This document shows positions 7,218 to 19,727 of a stretch of DNA of 32,668 nt, piece after piece. Both the position numbers and the translations under genes were made by a program. The DNA comes from Planctomycetota bacterium. GTDB taxonomy: Bacteria > Planctomycetota > Phycisphaerae > WQYP01. A model generated the notes under the pieces. It made no database searches, was not told the origin of the DNA, and worked only from the letters and a program-made list of their open reading frames with translations. The DNA lies in contig JAJZDN010000048.1 in NCBI GenBank assembly GCA_021805985.1, positions 1-32,668 on the forward strand. The letters are read 5' to 3'. The stretch's first letter is position 1, and every line of letters starts with the position of its first letter.

Positions 7218-9125
7218 ATGGCTTTCATAGGTAATCTAACAGCAGTAAGTTCGCCGCTTCACTTAATTCCCTATCCGAAGCAATGTGAACCCGCGAATGG
7301 CGAGCTTTATTTTGGAGCAACCCCGCCGTGGATTCAGACGCCATCAGACGATCCCGCCGTGCGCGATGCCCTGGCGGAAGTAGTCGCTCTGATTACCACA
7401 GGCCCTCTCTTCATTCCAGCCGAACAACCCACAACGATTCCCATAATCCAACTCGCACTTAACCCCGCCATAGCCCATCCCCAAGGCTATGAATTGCACA
7501 TCACCCGCAAGGGGGCAATCGTTAATGCAAAAACATCAGTCGGTTTATTTTATGGCCTGCAAACTCTAATTCAAATCGCCCGCCACTATGGCCGAGCGTG
7601 GCCATGCCTGCATATTACGGATGCTCCGGATTATGACCGTCGCGGCTTTTATCATGACGTGTCGCGCGGAAAAGTGCCCACGCGGCACACGCTGTTATGG
7701 CTGGTCAAACAGTTGTCGGCACTGAAAATCAACGAGTTTCAACTGTACATTGAAAATGTCTTTGAGTTTTCCGGCCACACGGATATGTATGCTTCCACCA
7801 CGCCTCTAACCGCGGATGATATACAAGCAGTTGATGCGCTGTGCCGCCGATACCATATTGATTTCGTGCCTTCCCTGACTTCCCTGGGCCATTTTGACAA
7901 AATTCTCCGCCTTCCGCGCTATCGCCATCTGGCGGAAATTGAGCCTGCTGATCTGCAACGCCGCGGCATTAAAACCTGGTCGGATGCCCCGTGGACTTTG
8001 TGCGTAACGGATCCCGAGGCCAAAGCCCTTTTAACGCAGATGTATGCCGACTTTCTCCCGCATTTTTCCAGCCCGAATTTTAATATCTGCTGCGATGAAT
8101 CCTGGGATCTGGGCTTAGGCCGCAGCGCGGCCGCTGCAAAAACCATGGGCATTGGGGGGTTATATGTGCAGTGGGTGAAGTTCTGCTGCGATCTTGCCGC
8201 GCGCCATGGAAAGCGTGTGCAACTTTGGGGGGATATTATTCTTAATCATCCGGAACTGATTCACGAGCTTCCCGAAAATGCCACGTTGTTGGAATGGGGT
8301 TATGCCGGTGATCATCCATTCGACGAGCACGGAAAACTTTTCGCCGAATCCGGCCGCGCGTTTTACGTCTGCCCGGGCACATCCACGTGGCAATCCCTGG
8401 GCGGCCGCTGGGATAATGCGACTGCTAATTTGCGCAACGCCGCGCACTGCGGCTTAAAATATGGCGCATCCGGATTTTTGAATACGGACTGGGGCGATTA
8501 CGGCCATCAGCAGACGCTGGCGGTAAGCTTGCTTCCCATGGCGTACGGTGCGGCTGTGGCGTGGAACGCCCAGCAGGATTCCGCGGATAAGCATGCGGTT
8601 GCAGCGGGGCTGCATCTGCTGGGCGACCGCGAGGGCACGATCGCCATGGCCATTGAGACCATGGGCAATGTTTATCAGCGCATCGCGAAAGAGCCGCTGC
8701 CCAACGCGTCCCTGGATTTCAAGCTCATGCGTGAGCCTTGGCATGACAAAGAATTTCTGAATCTCACTAAGACAGAATCGCTTGAGCAGGAATATGAGCA
8801 TCTCACCGCAATTTGCTCCTGCTTTGAATTTCCCGCTGATGCGTTGAATCCTGAACAGGCGTTGGCCTTGCAGGAACTGGCAATCACGCGAGATCAGATT
8901 CTCTATACGCTTTCGCGCACCATAGCCCGACTTGATTTCGTCGCTAACGGGAAGACAAACCGAACAACTTCCGATCAGCAAATCCAACTTCTTGAAGCAA
9001 TAAAAGATCGCTATGGCAATCTTTGGTTACAACGCAACAAGCAATCTCGCCTGGAAGATATCCTGGCCATTTTTGATCAGCGCCTCCGCGAACATCGCGA
9101 AAATTCCGCAGTTGCAAAATCCTAG
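7218..9125 (+). CDS. Glycoside hydrolase family 20-type beta-N-acetylhexosaminidase
   Basis: The protein has 635 residues starting at an ATG without a canonical Shine-Dalgarno sequence. Residues about 10-125 look like the GH20b accessory domain (HLIPYPKQCEP near the start; GYELHITRKGAIVNAKTSVG, then GLFYGLQTL). The catalytic barrel begins with DYDRRGFYHDVSRGKVPT. The candidate Asp-Glu catalytic pair is Asp293-Glu294 in FNICCDESWDLG; by family, the Glu is the acid/base and the Asp stabilises the substrate acetamido group. The C-terminal 200 residues are helical-looking and unassigned. No signal peptide is visible, so it may act in the cytoplasm on imported amino sugars or on peptidoglycan turnover products. 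Family 20 membership is the best reading; the CDE context is less typical than the usual GGDE. Confidence 0.82.
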   Translation: MAFIGNLTAVSSPLHLIPYPKQCEPANGELYFGATPPWIQTPSDDPAVRDALAEVVALITTGPLFIPAEQPTTIPIIQLALNPAIAHPQGYELHITRKGAIVNAKTSVGLFYGLQTLIQIARHYGRAWPCLHITDAPDYDRRGFYHDVSRGKVPTRHTLLWLVKQLSALKINEFQLYIENVFEFSGHTDMYASTTPLTADDIQAVDALCRRYHIDFVPSLTSLGHFDKILRLPRYRHLAEIEPADLQRRGIKTWSDAPWTLCVTDPEAKALLTQMYADFLPHFSSPNFNICCDESWDLGLGRSAAAAKTMGIGGLYVQWVKFCCDLAARHGKRVQLWGDIILNHPELIHELPENATLLEWGYAGDHPFDEHGKLFAESGRAFYVCPGTSTWQSLGGRWDNATANLRNAAHCGLKYGASGFLNTDWGDYGHQQTLAVSLLPMAYGAAVAWNAQQDSADKHAVAAGLHLLGDREGTIAMAIETMGNVYQRIAKEPLPNASLDFKLMREPWHDKEFLNLTKTESLEQEYEHLTAICSCFEFPADALNPEQALALQELAITRDQILYTLSRTIARLDFVANGKTNRTTSDQQIQLLEAIKDRYGNLWLQRNKQSRLEDILAIFDQRLREHRENSAVAKS

Positions 9126-15243: not shown

Positions 15244-15582
15244 TTAATCTCTCACTGCGGTCCGCCTGCCTCCCAATCCTGCTGAACAATTCCAGTATCC
15301 AACAGGACCGCCGCTAGGATCCTCTATGTACTGTAGCATCAACTGCCCCTACGATTCAAATCTTGGTGTGCCATTGTTATAGCTGACCGAACGGTTTGCA
15401 ATGCCTGGATTCAGCGTGAATCCGGCGGGTAACGGCAGTATGTTTCCGGGCGGACCACCAAGGGCCGCTGTCCGGAATTCAGGCTTGCCCGCTCTCCCGT
15501 ACCATTGCAGCGTGCTGCGTGCGGGATTTGTTATTCCGGTATAGCCCGCGTGGCAGGTGGCTCCTGACCGGGCCGTGATATC
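15244..15582 (-). pseudogene. Coding-like remnant downstream of the secreted-protein cluster
   Basis: The gap 15195-15649 has no intact gene, but two minus-strand frames read like protein. From 15582 to 15349 a stop-free frame without a start encodes GYTGITNPARSTLQWYGRAG, ALGGPPGNILPLPAGFTLNP and ANRSVSYNN before a TAG. A different frame then encodes YIEDPSGGPVGYWNCSAGLG and stops at 15244. The residue mix is natural and proline/glycine-rich, unlike random antisense. I read it as the decayed 3' end of a gene related to the adjacent cluster, but no family is recognised. Confidence 0.4.
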
Positions 15583-15649: not shown

Positions 15650-16378
15650 TCATTTCCGTTTTGCCGTTTGCGTTCCGTTGGGCCGGGGCACGATGGGGTC
15701 CGCTGTGATAAATATGTCAACCCGTCCAGTGAACTTGCCGTTCCTCCCCTGGTACAACTTTGCCTGCCATAGCTGCTGCCCAGCGGGTTTCGGTCCAACG
15801 CGATAGCGGATCGCTGTTGTCAAAAAACGCCGAAGCGATATCCCTTTGACGTTGAATCGCATCGGCGTGGTGAACAGCGCGGGGTGGCGAGGCAACGATA
15901 TTCCACCGCTTCCGCCACCACTCCCACCGCTTCCAAAATTATAAAAGCGAACCCCAGGAAATGCTTTGGCGAAGACGTGCGATTCCAAATTCACTATGCT
16001 CATAGTCCCATGGAGCGTCAGCCTGCGGTTCAATGGATTGCCCTTCCATTTCAATGCCTGCCGGTCCGCCAAGTGAATCACATGCCGATTGCCCGAGCGT
16101 CGCCAGATTCCTATATCGGGGAGTTGATTCCGCAGGAGTTTTAGTTTCTGATGTGTGCTTAATCCTGCTCGCGGGATTTGTATTCGTGCGCCGTAAAGCC
16201 CAGTGCGGGTAACTTTGCCAGCCGGAACAACCTCCTCTTGGGTATAGATGAACTTTGCGTGCAACATCAAATAGAACCCCAAAAATGTCCTCCCACCACT
16301 CGGAACGGCCTTGGCGGCCGCCACAGACATGACAGCAAGGAAGACCACGAAACATATTGTCGGTTTTGCGTTCTGCAT
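15650..16378 (-). CDS. Secreted protein of unknown function, GRVDI-type C-terminus
   Basis: The protein has 242 residues. A signal peptide occupies residues about 7-24 (ICFVVFLAVMSVAAAKA). The mature part has IHLADRQALKWKGNPLNRRL, a Gly/Ser-rich spacer GSGGSGGGSGG near residue 155, and ends with QLWQAKLYQGRNGKFTGRVD followed by IFITADP and a basic tail. The C-terminal block is clearly homologous to a decayed frame at 19500-19600 (LWSAHVYCGKNGKPTGRVDI). AAAGG lies 12 bases before the ATG, at the end of the decayed element upstream. It is the last intact gene of the minus-strand secreted-protein run. I do not recognise a family. Confidence 0.65.
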   Translation of the reverse strand: MQNAKPTICFVVFLAVMSVAAAKAVPSGGRTFLGFYLMLHAKFIYTQEEVVPAGKVTRTGLYGARIQIPRAGLSTHQKLKLLRNQLPDIGIWRRSGNRHVIHLADRQALKWKGNPLNRRLTLHGTMSIVNLESHVFAKAFPGVRFYNFGSGGSGGGSGGISLPRHPALFTTPMRFNVKGISLRRFLTTAIRYRVGPKPAGQQLWQAKLYQGRNGKFTGRVDIFITADPIVPRPNGTQTAKRK

Positions 16379-16394: not shown

Positions 16395-16678
16395 TCAACT
16401 ATTGGCGCAACGCGGATAGGCATTACCAGTTCCGTTCCAAGTTTGATTCGTCTCTGTAACCATAACCGCCACGTCACACTCCACCCAAATCTGCCAATAC
16501 CCCTCAATCATTCGCGTAAATGTCAACGTCGCATTCGACGATGCTGACGGCTGAGTCGGGGTAATGGGTCAGTATAACTGCCCGATGGCGGTGAGCCAAA
16601 GGCGTCGGCCCGCAAAGCCTTGTACTGCACATTGGCAACCGACCAATCGCACCGGGCGGAAAATGACGGCACCGGCAT
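16395..16678 (-). pseudogene. Decayed copy 1 of the SGSYTD element, between two secreted-protein genes
   Basis: From an ATG overlapping the upstream gene's stop (TAATG at 16680-16676), a frame encodes RCDWSVANVQYKALRAD and AFGSPPSGSYTD, then ends at 16523. Homology continues in another frame: PTQPSASSNATLTFTRM, then GYWQIWVECDVAV and TNQTWNGTGNAYPR, ending at a TGA that sits inside the TTGAAAGG ahead of the next gene. A relative at 19239 keeps SGSYTD and PTRPSTSLNATLVFT in one frame, so this copy has a frameshift. The 51-residue 5' part could still be translated by coupling, but this is unproven. Confidence 0.6.
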
Positions 16679-17790
16679 TAATAATACTGGGGCACGGCGA
16701 CATTCGTCCATGGCGACCAAGTGTGCGTATGCGCCAGCTCTACGCGCACGCGATACACGCCGGCTAGGGTCATGTCATACATGCAACTCAAATTGATTGG
16801 CTCGGAATATTTGTACACCATGCCGGGCTTGAGCGTGTACGCCTTGTGTTTCAGGCCCCGCACCGGATGCTTCGCAAGCCAGCGCCCGTAGGCGGTTATG
16901 GCTGGCACCGCAACCCTCGTGACAACCTCGTGTGGCTTAGGCGCTCTGACGTGCCTCACGCGGTCCAGAGAAGAAGGCCCTTGAACCTGAATTGCCCTGA
17001 AATCGACAAACGGGTTGCCGGTCAGACGCAGCTTTATGCGAGATCTGCCGTAGTTGGCGTATTCGGCGTCGATGGTGATTGGCCCCGGCCCTTTCGCATC
17101 CGCGTTGATCAGCAACACTCGGATGCCTGTGGCGTTCGCGCGCGGGACCACTTTCACCGGGGGACCAAGCGCAGCGGCTGGAATTTTTCCGTAAGGTGCC
17201 AGCACGGTGACCCGCAGCGGCTGGCTCACCAGCACGTTGCGCGCGATACGTTTCTGCGTTGCACTGCGGTCCCCGTCCTGCACCAGAAAGATCATTTGTT
17301 CCCGTTTGGTGGACCACAACGGCCCAGGTATACCAACCCGTAGCCCGTATTTGGTTGTCACGCGGACGAGATATCGCCCCGGGAGCGTCATGTCCAAGTA
17401 TTGGCCGACGGGGATGAGATGGCGGTAATCGCCGCTATTTCCGGGAGCGATTAGCCCAATCGGGGTAAATGAAAAGCCGTTTGATGACCACGGTCTAACC
17501 GCCTCCCTGCCAAAGGCGGTCGGCGCAACCTGCGCCGCATGGGGTCCATACGTACCACGGCAGAGGAAGGTATATTCGGGTGCCGAGCGGAATTGGCAGA
17601 ATGTTAAAGGCAATTTGGCTTGATTTCGGAAATAGGCCCGAACCGGTAGCGCAGCACCCGAAGTGTAGACCTTGGCCGCGGAGGTTACGTGAAGCGATAC
17701 GCCGCGCACGGCCGCATCTGATTTCGCAGGAGCCAGTGCGAACAACGCGGACAATGCAAGCACGGGGATGGCTAACGTGAAAATTTTCAT
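16678..17790 (-). CDS. Secreted protein, paralogue B of a tandem pair
   Basis: The protein has 370 residues. AAAGG lies eight bases before the ATG. A classical signal peptide spans residues 1-26 (IPVLALSALFALAPAKSDAA). The mature protein is beta-rich and shares, throughout its length, blocks with the gene at 18038: QYLDMTLPGRYLVRVTTKYG, PLRVTVLAPYGKIP, GNPFVDFRAIQVQGPSS, KPHEV and YSEPINLSCMYDM, then GVYRVRVELAHTHTWSPW. YL-DMTLPG-Y and the C-terminal block suggest two Ig-like or related sandwich domains, each with a strand pattern ending in 'G-Y-x-V-R-V'. The function is unknown. Its start overlaps the end of the upstream element's frame (ATGA) and its stop overlaps the next element's ATG (TAATG). 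Confidence 0.75.
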   Translation of the reverse strand: MKIFTLAIPVLALSALFALAPAKSDAAVRGVSLHVTSAAKVYTSGAALPVRAYFRNQAKLPLTFCQFRSAPEYTFLCRGTYGPHAAQVAPTAFGREAVRPWSSNGFSFTPIGLIAPGNSGDYRHLIPVGQYLDMTLPGRYLVRVTTKYGLRVGIPGPLWSTKREQMIFLVQDGDRSATQKRIARNVLVSQPLRVTVLAPYGKIPAAALGPPVKVVPRANATGIRVLLINADAKGPGPITIDAEYANYGRSRIKLRLTGNPFVDFRAIQVQGPSSLDRVRHVRAPKPHEVVTRVAVPAITAYGRWLAKHPVRGLKHKAYTLKPGMVYKYSEPINLSCMYDMTLAGVYRVRVELAHTHTWSPWTNVAVPQYY

Positions 17791-18029
17791 TTGTCGGGCC
17801 TTTCAATCATTGGGGGAGTACCGGAGGATTGTAGACGATGCTCCAGGTGGGATATTTGTTTGTCAATTGCGTCGTTGCGTTGCCCGCCGCCGGGAGAATA
17901 TTGGTGAGCGTCCATGGAATCAGTATAACTGCCTGACGGTGGCGGACCAAAGGAATCCGCCCGCAATGCTTTGTACTGCACCTTGGCAACCGACCAACCG
18001 CACCGGGCGGAAAATGGCGGTGCCAGCAT
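17787..18029 (-). pseudogene. Decayed copy 2 of the SGSYTD element, frame still open
   Basis: An 80-codon frame starts with ATG nine bases after the stop of the 18038 gene. It encodes RCGWSVAKVQYKALRAD and SFGPPPSGSYTD, and its TGA overlaps the start of the next gene as ATGA. Relative to copy 1, 13 bases differ over the 26 codons from Trp to the Asp of SGSYTD, and 11 of these are in third positions, so this part was coding under selection. After SGSYTD the frame diverges, while a +1 frame keeps GNATTQLTNKYPTWSIVYNP, indicating a frameshift. It may be a relic or a translationally coupled small protein. Confidence 0.55.
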
Positions 18030-18037
18030 TAATAATA

Positions 18038-19192
18038 TTATGGCACGGTGACATTCACCCATGGCGACCAGATATGCGTATGGGCCAGCTTCACGCGGAC
18101 CCGATACACGCCGCTCACGCTCATATCATACATGCAACTCAAGTTGACCGGCTCGGAATAGTTGTAGATCACGTCAGGTTTGAGCACATAGGTTTTCCGT
18201 TTCAAGTCTTTGATAGGATGTTTGCTCAGCCATTGGCCATAGGCGGTCAAGGAGGCAGGGTTCTTGTGAATGTACGGCACCTCATGGGGCCTGGGCTTTT
18301 GGACCGTAGTCGACTCGCCAGGAAAACTCGGCCCGGTAACTTGGATCTCTGAAAAATCAACCAACGGGTTGCCGGCAAGACGCACTTTTGCCGCGCTCTG
18401 GCCGTCATCTACACATTGGACACAAAGAGTAATTGGCCCCGGGCCATTGGCCACCGGATTGGTAAGCAAAAGATGGATACCGGCAGATAGTTTACCGGAT
18501 TGCAGTGGAGTTGTTTTGGCCGACGGCTTTGTCGCCACAACGGGAACTTTCCGGTAGGGCGCAAAAACGGTGATCCGCAGCGGGTTGCTGGTCAATACCT
18601 TGTGCCCAATGAGACGGCTTTTTGCACCCAAAAATCCGTCTTGGATCAGGAATGCGACCTTCGTCGGCTTGATGATGATGTAGTGAGGATGATCCAGTGT
18701 CTGCGGCTGTAGGATGCCAACATATAAACCGTACTTCGTAGTTGCACGCATAACATATAATCCCGGCAAGGTCATGTCGAGGTATCGGCCGACATAGATG
18801 GAAGTATGCGCCACCTCTATGTTGTAAAGAGCCGATTTCCCACTGACAATGAAAAGTGCTGGTGGAAACCCAAATATATTCACCCCGAGGGATTGCTCAG
18901 AACGGATACCGTGGTGTGTGGCCGTTACCCGTCGGTGCAGCACGCCCGCTCCGGCCCCAAATAGGAATGTATAACGGGCCGCCAAATCGTCAGCAATCAC
19001 CAGGGGCAATTTCCCTATATTGTGAATTTTAATCGTAACGGGGACTAGAGACCCCGAAACATACCGGTTGGCGCTGCTGGTCATGATCAAGGCCCCGTAC
19101 TTGGCTGGGTTCGGGATGAGCTTAACTTTACCAAACCCGATGCTGGGCCATAATAATATGCCAACGGCTATTATGCTTGAAATCGTTTTCAT
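18038..19192 (-). CDS. Secreted protein, paralogue A of a tandem pair
   Basis: The protein has 384 residues from MKTISSIIAV; the upstream TTG at 19216 adds only a basic stretch and is less likely. The signal peptide is about residues 1-21 (SIIAVGILLWPSIGFG). It is paralogous over its whole length to the gene at 16678, sharing RYLDMTLPG, TTKYGLYVGI, NPLRITVFAPY, GNPLVDFSEIQVTGPS, KPHEV and YSEPVNLSCMYDM, then GVYRVRVKLAHTHIWSPW. Divergence is substantial (many conservative changes), so the duplication is not recent. A VTIKIHNIGKLPLVI stretch near residue 53 resembles an intracellular-proteinase-inhibitor or Ig-like strand pattern. The function is unknown. Confidence 0.75.
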   Translation of the reverse strand: MKTISSIIAVGILLWPSIGFGKVKLIPNPAKYGALIMTSSANRYVSGSLVPVTIKIHNIGKLPLVIADDLAARYTFLFGAGAGVLHRRVTATHHGIRSEQSLGVNIFGFPPALFIVSGKSALYNIEVAHTSIYVGRYLDMTLPGLYVMRATTKYGLYVGILQPQTLDHPHYIIIKPTKVAFLIQDGFLGAKSRLIGHKVLTSNPLRITVFAPYRKVPVVATKPSAKTTPLQSGKLSAGIHLLLTNPVANGPGPITLCVQCVDDGQSAAKVRLAGNPLVDFSEIQVTGPSFPGESTTVQKPRPHEVPYIHKNPASLTAYGQWLSKHPIKDLKRKTYVLKPDVIYNYSEPVNLSCMYDMSVSGVYRVRVKLAHTHIWSPWVNVTVP

Positions 19193-19238
19193 AGAATCTT
19201 TTCTTTTCAAATTCAATGTTTCGGCCTTAACGGCAAAA

Positions 19239-19727
19239 TCATTTGCTGCGACTCCAAGTACTTGTCAGGGTGCCGCAGCGCGGGGTAAACACCAGTGTGG
19301 CGTTCAGCGATGTTGACGGCCGCGTCGGGCTGATTTGATCAGTATAACTGCCCGATGGCCGCGAGCCAAAGGCGTCGGCCCGCAGGCGGTCGGCCTGCAA
19401 GGCTGGGTACTTTGCGTTTGCGCTGTACCGGCACCCCACTCGCGGTTGGCGGGGATTGCTTGTTCCGGGGAGCAATTTCATTTCCCTTTTGCACACGCGT
19501 AAGCCCCCCGCCGGTTGGGTCGCCGGGTTTGCCAGGATAGAAATGTCAACGCGGCCCGTGGGTTTGCCGTTTTTGCCACAGTATACGTGTGCACTCCAAA
19601 GTTGCGGGCCTGATACGTGTGCATCCCACCGTTGCTGGTCAGATCCGTTAATTTCCCAGTTGAGTGGGAAGTGGTATTTTCTGCTGTTTTCTCGGAACTT
19701 GGAAAGCGGGCGTGGTGGTTGGAAGTT
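19239..19727 (-). pseudogene. Start-less frame: decayed secreted-protein tail plus SGSYTD element copy 3
   Basis: A stop-free frame of about 160 codons without a plausible start overlaps the 3' end of the lipoprotein gene in a different frame. From about 19640 it encodes DQQRWDAHVSGPQLWSAHVY, then CGKNGKPTGRVDISILANP, which matches the C-terminus of the 15650 gene. It then encodes RADAFGSRPSGSYTD and PTRPSTSLNATLVFTP with no frame break. Near 19380 a short duplication gives QADRLRAD. I read it as the residue of a lost secreted-protein gene fused to the best-preserved frame of the element. Confidence 0.6.

Follow-up and report, generated by a model that had tools for sequence, protein, structure and literature searches.

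The three related elements that lie between secreted-protein genes on the minus strand of this contig are very probably the pseudogene remnants of a larger secreted protein, here called P. The array would then be a row of P/partner pairs in which the partners, of families B, B and C, are intact and the P genes have decayed. The window (the whole stretch of DNA analysed, 32,668 nucleotides) makes up the entire contig 19 of a draft genome of 4.68 Mb (197 contigs). P consists of a signal sequence, a strand-rich constant domain of about 135 residues (Pn), and an exchangeable C-terminal part, of which at least six kinds, unrelated or distantly related to each other, are found behind Pn (ctA to ctF). 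The features of the array are as follows.

19485..19619, minus strand: 3' end of a C-family partner gene, preserved as a remnant (model positions 204-248 of 249; profile E-values 2e-12 and 7e-12)
19275..19400, minus strand: element 3, remnant of Pn by the Pn profile (positions 53-94 of 135)
18038..19216, minus strand: gene A, an intact B-family secreted partner, with a likely start at an ATG near 19190
17883..18014, minus strand: element 2, first part, a Pn remnant (positions 42-85); the DNA similarity stops at 17914
17813..17914, minus strand: element 2, second part, the last 35 or so residues of ctA (E-value 7.9e-8 with a tail model and 2.1e-6 with the full ctA model)
16678..17790, minus strand: gene B, an intact B-family secreted partner
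16401..16666, minus strand: element 1, a Pn remnant (positions 41-126), frameshifted by 1 nt near 16565
15650..16378, minus strand: gene C, an intact C-family secreted partner
15367..15426, minus strand: remnant of a ctD end, downstream of gene C (E-value 5e-10)

Read 5' to 3' on the minus strand, the order is C-gene end, Pn remnant, gene A, Pn remnant with ctA tail, gene B, Pn remnant, gene C and ctD end.

The initial annotation had described three minus-strand elements with a common core, each just upstream of a secreted-protein gene. Both observations hold, with the limits of the elements refined to 19275-19400, 17883-18014 plus 17813-17914, and 16401-16666. The tight junctions that it pointed out (ATGA, TAATG and the flank TTGAAAGG) are also real. 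The window has TTGAAAGG in two places only, ahead of genes B and C. Ahead of gene B it comes straight after the stop codon that closes the ctA tail, and this flank is probably the end of P together with the ribosome-binding site of the partner.

Chance similarity, which had been offered as a way in which the annotation could fail, is excluded by the E-values of the nucleotide and profile searches. A 154-nt query made from the element copies found nine copies in the genome with E-values of 1e-59 to 1e-4, followed by a gap to an E-value of about 1; in relatives, its strong matches lie mostly within the same genus and family. With a profile built from intact relatives, the E-values were 8e-11 to 1e-10 for the three window elements and 5e-18 for the second half of element 1.

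The core of the elements lies within full-length secreted proteins, the P proteins, both in relatives and at contig 71 of the window genome. Intact P is approximately 470–560 residues long. Full-length open reading frames containing the element sequence are present in G000, G007, G002, G023, G027, G008, G018 and G009, and other genomes have shorter or contig-cut frames; the named relatives are unclassified Planctomycetota or Phycisphaerae assemblies. The description of the elements as decayed coding sequence was therefore correct, and the expected full-length parent within a larger protein was found by translation of related loci and with the Pn profile. This profile matched 17 of the 28 genomes of the same family and none of 270 other genomes of the class. 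Pn sequence regularly stands beside genes of the system: 51 of 52 Pn places are within 1.5 kb of an upstream gene U (described below), a C-terminus or a partner feature on the same strand, and the exception is at a contig end. On their sequence, the elements are best identified as remnants of the constant N-terminal domain of P and not as an independent element.

Other identities were considered for the elements. A search of Rfam gave no match and no tRNA was found. A mobile element or interspersed repeat was rejected since the copies have no ends of their own and are parts of genes beside genes of the system; no inverted repeats bounding the elements were found in the window, and the copies do not show an independent distribution with terminal inverted repeats or target duplications.

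The proposal that the elements encode small proteins, coupled to the secreted genes, draws on their short open frames and on the tight overlaps of starts and stops, and is now hardly tenable. The open frames, of 51–91 codons, are broken at points that differ from copy to copy, and in element 2 the final third of the frame is an out-of-frame reading through another piece of the parent gene, the ctA tail. For these reasons the frames do not represent a conserved protein. It might also be supposed that the core was kept as a promoter for the next gene, because two window copies match a sigma-70-like pattern (TTGGCT-17-TATACT). We regard this as very unlikely: there are seven promoter-like sites where 4.5 +/- 1.7 are expected, and in intact P the codons over TATACT are no more constrained at synonymous sites than the average (homozygosity 0.53 and 0.52; mean 0.51).

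In several relatives, Pn copies carry a small palindromic insert, CTCCCGATRCATCGGGATAAACT, of net length about +11 to +13 nt, right behind the SIS codons. It shifts the Pn frame, and the frames on either side remain open. It was seen at L063:6087-6106, L065:6084-6103, L073:5883-5902 and 8500-8519, and in L039, L067, L068, L075 and L076. A similar palindrome is dispersed elsewhere in the genomes of relatives, and none of this type was found in the genome of the window.

All the genomes compared are drafts, metagenome-type assemblies, with many Pn copies at contig ends, so that single-base frameshifts, such as that in element 1 directly after TATACTGA, could be assembly errors; missing stretches of about 1 kb are unlikely to be. 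Contigs recurrently stop inside Pn copies (G023 contigs 98, 100, 135 and 137; G018 contig 225; G007 contig 137), which suggests that assembly failed at near-identical copies of Pn and that there are more copies than were counted.

At intact loci the order is U, P, and then a partner of the family that matches the C-terminal type of P. The gene directly downstream follows the C-terminus: ctA is followed by B, ctB by pB, ctC by D, ctD by C, ctE by pE and ctF by pF. Forty of the 41 adjacent pairs of C-terminus and partner are matched in type, and 100,000 shuffles gave at most 22; the shuffle test counts related loci as independent, and the six types and several genera agree. The lone mismatched pair is a truncated ctB adjoining a C gene. 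Some of the partners are very large, at approximately 810 residues. In G010, contig 39 (L117:1684-4371), a single open reading frame of 895 residues comprises Pn, ctB and the pB partner, and this fusion is direct evidence that the C-terminus and the partner belong together. The fusion protein also links two of the pair types: ctA and ctB match over the same region of it (E-values 2e-10 and 8e-39) and the B profile matches its pB part (1e-7). Because of this distant similarity on both sides, the ctA-B and ctB-pB pairs have probably diverged from one ancestral pair.

The gene that usually stands upstream of full-length P is U, which encodes a Reg_prop β-propeller protein of about 900 residues and whose 3' end overlaps the reading frame of P. 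This is the likeness of the system to Reg_prop β-propeller proteins (PF07494): the U directly upstream of full-length P has the Reg_prop repeat. It differs in that U is one of a large, strongly expanded set of paralogues, which 25 of the 28 genomes have, with up to 25 matches per genome (for example in G019 and G018), and most of these copies have no P alongside. Beside two P loci (L077:4899-6572 and L117:4725-6533) there is a cysteine-rich protein that by eye resembles a methylamine dehydrogenase light chain, and another secreted protein of about 380–395 residues; L077 also holds MauE (PF07291) and a MauD-like protein.

A comparison of Pn sequences gives clues as to how the pairs are exchanged. 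Fifteen pairs of P proteins have Pn domains at least 80% identical and C-termini that differ, with 99% identity for two in G002, while P proteins with the same C-terminus can have Pn identities as low as 26%. The mean Pn identity in protein hardly differs, at 0.56 for the same type and 0.51 for different types. In DNA, a less telling comparison, it is 0.64 within a genome for different C-termini and 0.61 between genomes for the same C-terminus. In the proteins Pn goes with the lineage and the C-terminus with the partner, a pattern to be expected were C-terminus and partner transferred as a pair through recombination in Pn. New pairs would enter through recombination in shared Pn sequence. In the window, deletion and frameshift have reduced the P genes to pieces of Pn, once with the end of ctA attached.

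These rules allow the window to be read. Genes A and B are B-family partners, whose normal place is after ctA, and gene C is a C-family partner, whose normal place is after ctD. Each fragment between two genes derives from the P gene that belonged to the gene downstream. Since its Pn remnant joins the ctA tail directly before gene B, element 2 can be recognised as a P-ctA gene that has lost about 1.1 kb from its interior and still stands ahead of its B gene; the ctA tail at this position agrees with the pairing rule. For elements 1 and 3, beside which no C-terminus sequence is left, the original C-terminal type is inferred from the partner gene.

Part of the history of the array can also be recovered. 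Positions 16569-16868 and 17920-18219 form a 300-nt repeat (79% identity) that spans the end of a gene and an element, and therefore this gene-plus-element unit was duplicated. The elements behind genes A and B both start after one short deletion between TTTCC repeats, and the undeleted form of the junction between B stop and truncated Pn is kept at contig 33 (C33) of the window genome and in G007. Because the undeleted junction is shared and the deletion is common to A and B, the B gene with a truncated Pn behind it probably predates the split of the window species and the G007 species, and the gene A and gene B copies are probably a later duplication of that unit. The view of the initial annotation, that gene-plus-element modules had multiplied, therefore stands for the two B-family genes, which have this derived deletion in common and the junction at C33 and in the sister species. 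It does not stand for the element, which is no module of its own; the unit is P with its matched partner.

Partners outlive P. There are 33 near-complete B or C genes, of which eight stand behind a full-length P and one at the start of a contig. The other 24 are preceded by a P that is truncated, by a C-terminus on its own, by a Pn remnant or by nothing. In the genomes examined, every full-length P that had sufficient sequence behind it was accompanied by its matched partner. Such persistence fits immunity genes, and also partners with a use of their own.

Sequence searches give few clues to function. With the exception of U (Reg_prop), none of the P and partner proteins in this set matched anything significantly in Pfam, NCBIfam, PHROGs, PADLOC or PDB sequences, and no paper describing the system was found in the literature searched. 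AlphaFold models were poor, with a mean pLDDT of 43 for the B protein and 37 for P-ctA.

Proteins with a constant and a variable part and a matched partner gene are the usual sign of intercellular competition, recognition or variable binding. One possible reading, although an unlikely one, is that P and its partner are a polymorphic toxin–immunity system, in which the C-terminus would be the toxin and the partner the immunity protein, and the window would be a row of orphan immunity genes. The layout is like that of polymorphic toxins of the CDI, Rhs and MafB type (PMC3482391, PMC7738311). In those systems the N-terminal part is constant, the C-terminal part comes in many types with a matched gene just downstream, and truncated follow-on cassettes occur in arrays (PMC3482391). 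Here too, six types are found on one Pn, the cognate gene lies directly downstream in 40 of 41 cases, and standalone cassettes occur in which a C-terminus with a truncated Pn, or none, precedes the partner; the frequent lack of P beside partners, while each full-length P with sufficient sequence downstream had its partner, points the same way. However, the P system has no recognisable toxin, immunity, pre-toxin, trafficking or delivery domain in Pfam, NCBIfam, PADLOC or PHROGs, nor a known toxin fold among PDB sequences. Its partners are secreted, some reach about 810 residues, and one forms a single chain with P.

Less probable again is a role of the remnants as silent donor cassettes, kept to vary a surface protein by gene conversion of an expressed P gene. 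Copies within a genome do stay similar, many contigs end in copies, and follow-on cassettes start inside Pn. Against this, the window remnants have lost nearly all the variable sequence that a donor must supply, and Pn copies from one genome are only a little more alike than copies from different genomes (identity 0.70 against 0.61).

We favour a secreted complex at the cell surface, in which exchangeable pairs share a common base, because the searches showed no toxin domain and one P forms a single protein with its partner. Outside the cytoplasm P and partner would act jointly, Pn serving as the shared anchor and the C-terminus as the part specific to the partner, and the longer life of partners would come from a use that they have even without P.

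On balance we consider it reasonably likely that this is a lineage-specific modular secreted system, absent from the libraries searched, with a base of β-propeller and Pn onto which pairs of C-terminus and partner are swapped by recombination, leaving behind arrays of orphan partners. No domain is recognised in P or in the partners, and the system is confined, as searched, to one uncultured family of Planctomycetota, in which it offers clean, testable pairs. A row of seemingly unrelated secreted genes becomes readable through the fossils that lie between them.
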